Source: Alphaproteobacteria bacterium (GTDB lineage: Bacteria; Pseudomonadota; Alphaproteobacteria; UBA8366). From it: a stretch of DNA of 64,000 nt. Below, piece after piece: positions 57,861 to 59,060 of this stretch; the first letter of the stretch is position 1; every line of letters starts with the position of its first letter. The stretch is taken from the NCBI GenBank assembly GCA_028281325.1, contig JANQKC010000027.1, forward strand, positions 62,001 through 126,000. The letters run 5' to 3'. The position numbers and the translations under genes were made by a program. The notes under the pieces were generated by a model that searched no databases, was not told the DNA's origin, and worked only from the letters and a program-made list of their open reading frames with translations.

Positions 57861-57995
57861 CCAAGCCCCGATACGCCCAACCGATCCCTTGCCCACCGCG
57901 GCGGCGCAACTAAACCGCGTGCGCCTTGACGGATCTAAAATGTTCTTGTTATGTTCTGTTTATTGCAACAAGCAGAACGGGACGGCCGGGACATT

Positions 57996-58307
57996 ATGGG
58001 TCGATTGAAGCAGGATCACCTCGCGGCGGAGGAGCAGCGCAGACGGGCCACCATGCTTGGCGAACTTCAACATCAACACGTCGACATCTTCTGTTGGTGC
58101 AACCGATGCGGGCATAACGCCGTCGTCGCCGTCGATTTGTTCATTGCCCAACTCGGCCCGGATTTCCCCGTGCCGGATATCGGCGCGCGCCTACGATGCA
58201 GTGGATGCGACAGCAAAGATATCGCCGCCCGGCCCGCTTGGCCGTCGCTGGGACAGGTCGCGCGGCATCACGGACCGAAGCCCGCGCTCGACGATGCGGC
58301 CGATTGA
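57996..58307 (+). CDS. zinc-ribbon-like small protein
   Basis: 103 residues from ATG 57996; an ORF start at 57951 is possible. Two Cys pairs with the look of a zinc ribbon, CWCNRCGH (~31) and LRCSGCDSKDI (~69), are separated by a helix-like VAVDLFIAQLG. It has no DNA-binding signature beyond this. Similar short proteins occur in alphaproteobacteria as uncharacterised. It could bind nucleic acid or metal, which is inference. It precedes the gcrA upstream region. Confidence 0.65.
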   Translation: MGRLKQDHLAAEEQRRRATMLGELQHQHVDIFCWCNRCGHNAVVAVDLFIAQLGPDFPVPDIGARLRCSGCDSKDIAARPAWPSLGQVARHHGPKPALDDAAD

Positions 58308-58356
58308 TCACCGACGGCATATGCCGTCGCAACACCGCCGGCCAACGCACGGGAAC

Positions 58357-58449
58357 GACTCGAAAAAAACGACGTCCGAGTCGCGCCATGGAATCCGACG
58401 CGTTACGCAAACGCATGCCGGATTCGTCGAAGAGCGGCAAGAACGATTC
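58357..58449. promoter_or_regulatory. cluster of five GANTC methylation sites
   Basis: GACTC (58357), GAGTC (58378), GAATC (58391), GATTC (58421) and GATTC (58445). GANTC is the CcrM target whose methylation state directs GcrA in Caulobacter. By simple expectation one site per ~256 bases is normal, so five in 93 bases is unusual, just upstream of gcrA itself. Confidence 0.6.
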
Positions 58450-58557: not shown

Positions 58558-58586
58558 TTGACGGCGGTGCGATCTACGTCCATAAA
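58558..58586 (+). promoter_or_regulatory. gcrA promoter candidate
   Basis: TTGACG, 17 bases, CATAAA: near-consensus -35 and acceptable -10 with ideal spacing, ~145 bases before the gcrA start codon. Confidence 0.55.
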
Positions 58587-58630
58587 AGTCGCAGGTGTGA
58601 AATCTTGTGGTGGGGTCCACACCGATATAT

Positions 58631-58643
58631 TGTGGTTACCACA
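58631..58643. promoter_or_regulatory. palindrome in the gcrA leader
   Basis: TGTGGTTACCACA is a perfect inverted repeat (6+1+6) about 45 bases after the promoter -10. It could be an operator or a small RNA hairpin; the protein that would bind is unknown. Confidence 0.35.
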
Positions 58644-58730
58644 GCCTGGTAACACGACATCTGGCCCCCACCGCCCACTCTCGGTGATCGGGTCAGGTAG
58701 ACCAAAAAAGACACGGAGAGAGGCAAAAAA

Positions 58731-59060
58731 ATGGTCTGGACCGACCATCGCGTCGATGAACTCAAGAAACTTTGGAACGAAGGCAAAACGGCGAGTCAAA
58801 TCGCCGATGAGTTGGGGGATGTCACTCGTAACGCCGTGATCGGCAAGGCCCATCGGTTGGGTCTGTCTTCGCGGCCGTCGCCGATCAAACGCAAGACGTT
58901 CGTTCTCCCCACGACGAACGAACGCATGTGCCAATGGCCGATCGGCAATCCGGGCGAACCGGGGTTTCGTTTCTGCGACCGTGTCGCAGCGCCGGGCCGC
59001 CCGTACTGCCAGGAACACTGCATTCAGGCCTATCGCCGCAAAAGCGAGTCCGCAGCTTAA
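58731..59060 (+). CDS. gcrA: cell-cycle regulator GcrA
   Basis: 109 residues, short for the family (~170 in Caulobacter) because the low-complexity middle is reduced. The N-terminal helix-turn-helix is WTDHRVDELKKLWNEGKTAS then VTRNAVIGKAHRLGL. The C-terminal domain is CQWPIGNPGEPGFRFCDR with YCQEHC. GcrA binds sigma70-RNA polymerase and methylated GANTC promoters to drive S-phase genes. GGAGAGAGG lies seven bases upstream. The upstream GANTC cluster suggests feedback with CcrM. Confidence 0.93.
   Translation: MVWTDHRVDELKKLWNEGKTASQIADELGDVTRNAVIGKAHRLGLSSRPSPIKRKTFVLPTTNERMCQWPIGNPGEPGFRFCDRVAAPGRPYCQEHCIQAYRRKSESAA

Follow-up and report, generated by a model that had tools for sequence, protein, structure and literature searches.

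GANTC sites retained upstream of gcrA in an alphaproteobacterial lineage suggest a control element linked to CcrM methylation

The closest described system is the gcrA promoter PG of Agrobacterium tumefaciens, which carries six GANTC sites in 250 bp. Its activity is lowered by CcrM methylation, even in E. coli, and an activation of gcrA after passage of the replication fork has been proposed, the gene being located about 0.43 Mb from ori1 (PMC11514494). GcrA has a preference for GANTC in the methylated state, with a wider protected region if both strands carry the mark; its footprint on ctrAP1 covers the -35 element and the adjacent GANTC (PMC3667746). In known GcrA-dependent promoters, the -35/-10 region contains GANTC or directly adjoins it (PMC4287350, PMC3667746). 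An extended motif, YGAKTCK, was reported for GcrA-activated genes in Caulobacter, while a preference for it was not found for Brevundimonas in the same study (PMC7987155). For ctrA, the 300 bp upstream contain from one up to five or six CcrM sites in some members of the Sphingomonadales and Caulobacterales (PMC8116508); these counts concern a different gene and come with no quoted test of site-level conservation.

The locus analysed here lies in a 64-kb stretch of DNA, in the following the window. As in Agrobacterium, GANTC is dense upstream of gcrA and CcrM is encoded. Unlike in Agrobacterium, all five sites fall within 93 bp, at a distance of 109-201 bp from the nearest putative promoter downstream, and are arranged around a pair of fixed spacing; the window also belongs to a different order. 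A second comparison is offered by the hemi-methylation-activated, GcrA-dependent promoter P1 of Caulobacter ctrA, where likewise the gene of a cell-cycle regulator has GANTC in its control region. The features of the locus are:

57951-58307, + strand: small upstream ORF, the gene preceding the gap, with CxxC pairs and a zinc-ribbon-like appearance by eye
58357-58361, + strand: GANTC site 1, GACTC inside CGACTCG, kept in the same-genus genome G001, not retained across genera
58377-58395, + strand: core pair CGAGTCG-N7-GAATC, i.e. sites 2 and 3 with 13 bp from start to start, seen in ten family genomes
58378-58382, + strand: GANTC site 2, GAGTC inside CGAGTCG, a context matching the extended GcrA motif YGAKTCK
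58391-58395, + strand: GANTC site 3, GAATC, from the sequence and the family alignment
58421-58425, + strand: GANTC site 4, GATTC, in G001 GAATC (middle base different, motif intact)
58445-58449, + strand: GANTC site 5, GATTC, kept in G001
58558-58586, + strand: putative sigma-70 promoter P2, TTGACG (58558-58563), 17-bp spacer, CATAAA (58581-58586), called by conservation
58605-58634, + strand: putative second promoter P1, TTGTGG (58605-58610) and TATATTGTG (58626-58634), called by a recurrent block
58731-59060, + strand: gcrA, 109 amino acids (PF07750, E=6.5e-35; PDB GcrA 7ye1, E=1.2e-28)

A recount placed five GANTC sites in 93 bp at 58357-58449, exactly where the initial annotation had seen them. 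Its remark that all four variants occur is correct for the letters; since GANTC is palindromic, these are just two double-strand types. The cluster is located in a noncoding gap of 423 bp between the end of the upstream ORF (58307) and the start of gcrA (58731). For this ORF, searches of Pfam and NCBIfam gave no match; right past its stop codon, 58313-58328 form a perfect 16-bp palindrome, GACGGCATATGCCGTC, which is not followed by a T run. The deduced GcrA aligns to PDB 7ye1 with both its DNA-binding N-terminus and its sigma-interacting C-terminus, and its linker is much shorter than in the 173-aa Caulobacter protein. The score of 124 bits against NF050816, under the equivalog cut-off of 280, is consistent with this short linker. 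CcrM is encoded elsewhere in the same genome (G000:C10, 387 aa), adjoining an rnhB-like ORF. It aligns nearly full length, including the C-terminal domain, to Caulobacter CcrM (PDB 6pbd, E=2.8e-156) and scores 623 bits against NF050803, under the Caulobacter-specific equivalog cut-off of 830.

Within this one genome the cluster is only modestly unusual. The initial annotation had expected one GANTC per ~256 bp, which is the wrong yardstick because the motif is strongly depleted in the window: 148 sites (one per 432 bp) were observed versus 345 in dinucleotide shuffles. With random placement at the actual density, any five GANTC in 93 bp anywhere in the window have a probability of 0.0083. In 874 kb sampled from the same genome, two clusters of five in 93 bp were present versus 0.19 expected; the second one (C24:50866-50944) was dropped as a comparable element, being inside a folP-like coding ORF. 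At least five GANTC occurred in 9 of 2160 windows of 400 bp (0.4 %; 864 kb of the same genome). A crude ORF-based gene caller gave, for the genome sample, a density of 3.13 GANTC per kb in intergenic DNA versus 2.50 per kb in the remainder, and at 3.13 per kb five sites in a 423-bp gap have a P of ~0.01. The richest intergenic stretch according to this caller (C24, L249:15175-15807) was set aside, as several small ORFs overlap it. A count that amounts to a 0.4-1 % event and the slightly denser GANTC between genes would suit a chance origin in relaxed, functionless intergenic sequence. The comparative evidence, in contrast, is strong and makes this account very improbable.

For the comparison, gcrA and its upstream DNA were retrieved from relatives, and palindromes of the same composition as GANTC served as control. 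All ten members of the window's family with a readable gcrA have three to six GANTC in the 400 bp before the gene, versus about one from the local GANTC background and about one for the control palindromes. G001, with an upstream identity of 0.83, kept all five sites, one with a changed middle base. In pairwise comparisons within genera of this family, 48 of 62 GANTC sites (77 %) were retained versus 27 of 102 control palindromes (26 %), which speaks against chance; a Fisher test on halved counts gave P = 1e-5, to be taken as indicative only, given the dependence between pairs from one genus. Genus g7 of the sister family f3 has 8-10 GANTC per 400 bp, ten of them in Pacificispira spongiicola (L140), with a within-genus retention of 194/285 versus 40/205 for control palindromes; the complete genome G039 of this genus has ten sites before gcrA, where the maximum in a 400-kb sample was six per 400-bp window. 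The same retention test revealed no excess of GANTC over controls in the f2 genera and in genus g16. Two further genomes, G020 and G029, encode CcrM and GcrA, yet have no GANTC cluster before gcrA. Across 63 other families the mean was 1.27 GANTC per 400 bp before gcrA versus a background of 0.61, and Azospirillum brasilense has none upstream of the gene; a class-wide universality of the cluster was thus rejected on these two observations. The initial annotation had named conservation in relatives as a check of its proposal, and the cluster is indeed kept in the family of the window as well as in part of the sister family. As judged from the sequence comparison, GANTC before gcrA is under site-level selection in these two groups and is lineage-restricted.

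Within the cluster, conservation across genera is confined to the core pair. CGAGTCG and the next GANTC at 13-bp spacing are invariant in ten of ten family genomes in the family alignment, with site 3 being GAATC or GATTC; sites 1, 4 and 5 are conserved within the genus only. Cross-genus identity is 0.65/0.56 at 58376-58405 versus 0.13-0.38 immediately outside. The pattern CGAGTCG-N7-GANTC matches 22 times in the ten genomes, ten times directly upstream of gcrA. From the 12 matches elsewhere, ~1.7e-4 would be expected upstream of gcrA per genome by chance, a second argument against a fortuitous cluster. G018, from another family, has a near-identical core, inverted, at the same distance from gcrA.

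A conserved pair of this kind could also be the operator of another transcription factor, with GANTC incidental to it; the factor might shield the sites from methylation or be modulated by it, and GcrA would not be the reader. The restriction of cross-genus conservation to 58377-58395, a site placement unlike that of a GcrA-dependent promoter and the local GANTC hypomethylation known in alphaproteobacteria (PMC5172544) are in line with such an operator. However, the excess retention concerns GANTC as compared to palindromes of the same composition, the middle base varies freely (site 4 from GATTC to GAATC, site 3 between GAATC and GATTC across genera) and relatives gained additional GANTC at other positions. 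These features are more consistent with the methylation motif than with a single operator as the target of selection, so that we regard another factor as unlikely.

The promoter of gcrA assumed in the initial annotation has a good counterpart in P2: TTGACG-N17-CATAAA is nearly invariant in the family, with TTGACG and CATAA unchanged in ten of ten genomes and a cross-genus identity of 0.61, and the 110-200 bases given between cluster and promoter agree with the distance to P2 stated above. P1 is farther from the cluster. A scan for consensus promoters gave nothing above threshold, P2 being below the cut-off, and the promoter calls therefore rest on conservation. Each of the four families in the order sample has a TATATTGTG-like block ahead of gcrA. 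This block is one arm of an inverted repeat whose partner is a CACAATATA-like arm downstream; at 58626-58660, the second arm follows TATATTGTG at ~20-25 bp, an arrangement common to the four families that overlaps the putative -10 element. The TATATTGTG/CACAATATA repeat looks like an operator or a 5' element. In L004, L006, L007 and L009 a DnaA-box-like TGTGGATAA, absent from the window, is located downstream of the GANTC cluster, ahead of the TTGACG promoter.

The main anatomical oddity of the locus is that, unlike ctrA P1, neither promoter in the window contains GANTC; from 58450 to the start of gcrA, none is in or beside either putative -35/-10 region. In most f3 genomes GACTC or GAGTC overlaps the -35 element of the second gcrA promoter, CTTGAGACTC-N13-TATATTGTG (loci L013, L014, L012, L015, L020, L022, L025 and L028), resembling ctrA P1 and the ctrAP1 footprint with GANTC over the -35 element. 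Genus g3 has GANTC within or adjacent to the promoter as well, at P2. The distance of more than 100 bp between cluster and gcrA promoters would be accounted for if the cluster served a separate transcript, from an upstream or antisense promoter or as a small RNA, with gcrA affected indirectly, and the inverted core of G018 would be compatible with a promoter facing either way. We consider this improbable: an Rfam search of the cluster region gave no match, no conserved -10-like sequence is present beside the core, and identities of 0.13-0.38 next to it exclude a conserved ORF across the cluster.

Our preferred reading, to which we assign a probability of roughly 60 %, is that the region before gcrA is a cis-regulatory element tying gcrA transcription to CcrM methylation. 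As the sites of the mark before gcrA were kept by evolution, the gene is probably controlled by the methylation mark that its own protein reads. From the observed sites and the encoded CcrM and GcrA we infer a course of events in which CcrM would methylate all five GANTC sites; passage of the fork would leave them hemi-methylated for the time before CcrM acts again. Their methylation state would set the occupancy by GcrA bound to sigma-70 RNA polymerase, or by another methylation-sensitive protein, and the occupancy of the cluster would tune the downstream gcrA promoters. GcrA is probably the reader at the cluster, which would make the circuit autoregulatory. CGAGTCG-N7-GANTC may act as the main docking site, the remaining three sites as lineage-specific extras. 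By analogy to Agrobacterium, the likeliest sign of the effect is negative, with gcrA dampened in the fully methylated state and released in the hemi-methylated one. Four observations stand against such a methylation-linked element: the location of the sites outside both putative promoters, the conservation of three of the five within the genus only, the cluster-less relatives that have CcrM and GcrA, and the lack of excess GANTC retention in f2 and genus g16.

The initial annotation had seen in the cluster a possible sensor of fork passage. In two complete genomes of order relatives, G039 and G018, gcrA is located ~80 % of the way from the origin to the terminus; the origins were placed near 1.5 Mb and near 0.65 Mb, respectively, from the location of dnaA and the GC skew in coarsely sampled stretches. 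This terminus-proximal position differs from the ~0.43 Mb between gcrA and ori1 in Agrobacterium and leaves a sensor of the early fork near the origin unsupported. In G039 and G018, a signal of fork passage would thus come late in S phase.

A mark's control of its own reader was previously reported in one species. As far as sequence comparison can tell, selection maintains GANTC before gcrA elsewhere in the class too, and the most important pair of sites is pinpointed. With lineages that have the cluster and lineages that do not, the feedback idea becomes directly testable. A more far-reaching version is doubtful, though conceivable: marine Rhodospirillaceae relatives may possess a dedicated epigenetic autoregulatory element, an orientation-independent docking module of two sites, CGAGTCG-N7-GANTC, that acts at a distance, so that methylated DNA and GcrA together set GcrA levels. 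If this were true, GcrA would work at a distance too, beyond its role as a promoter-bound sigma cofactor. Apart from these lineages, Kordiimonas and relatives (L160, L169, L177, L179) have three GANTC in a stretch of ~25 bp, 49-74 bp upstream of gcrA, which may represent an independent cluster close to the promoter.
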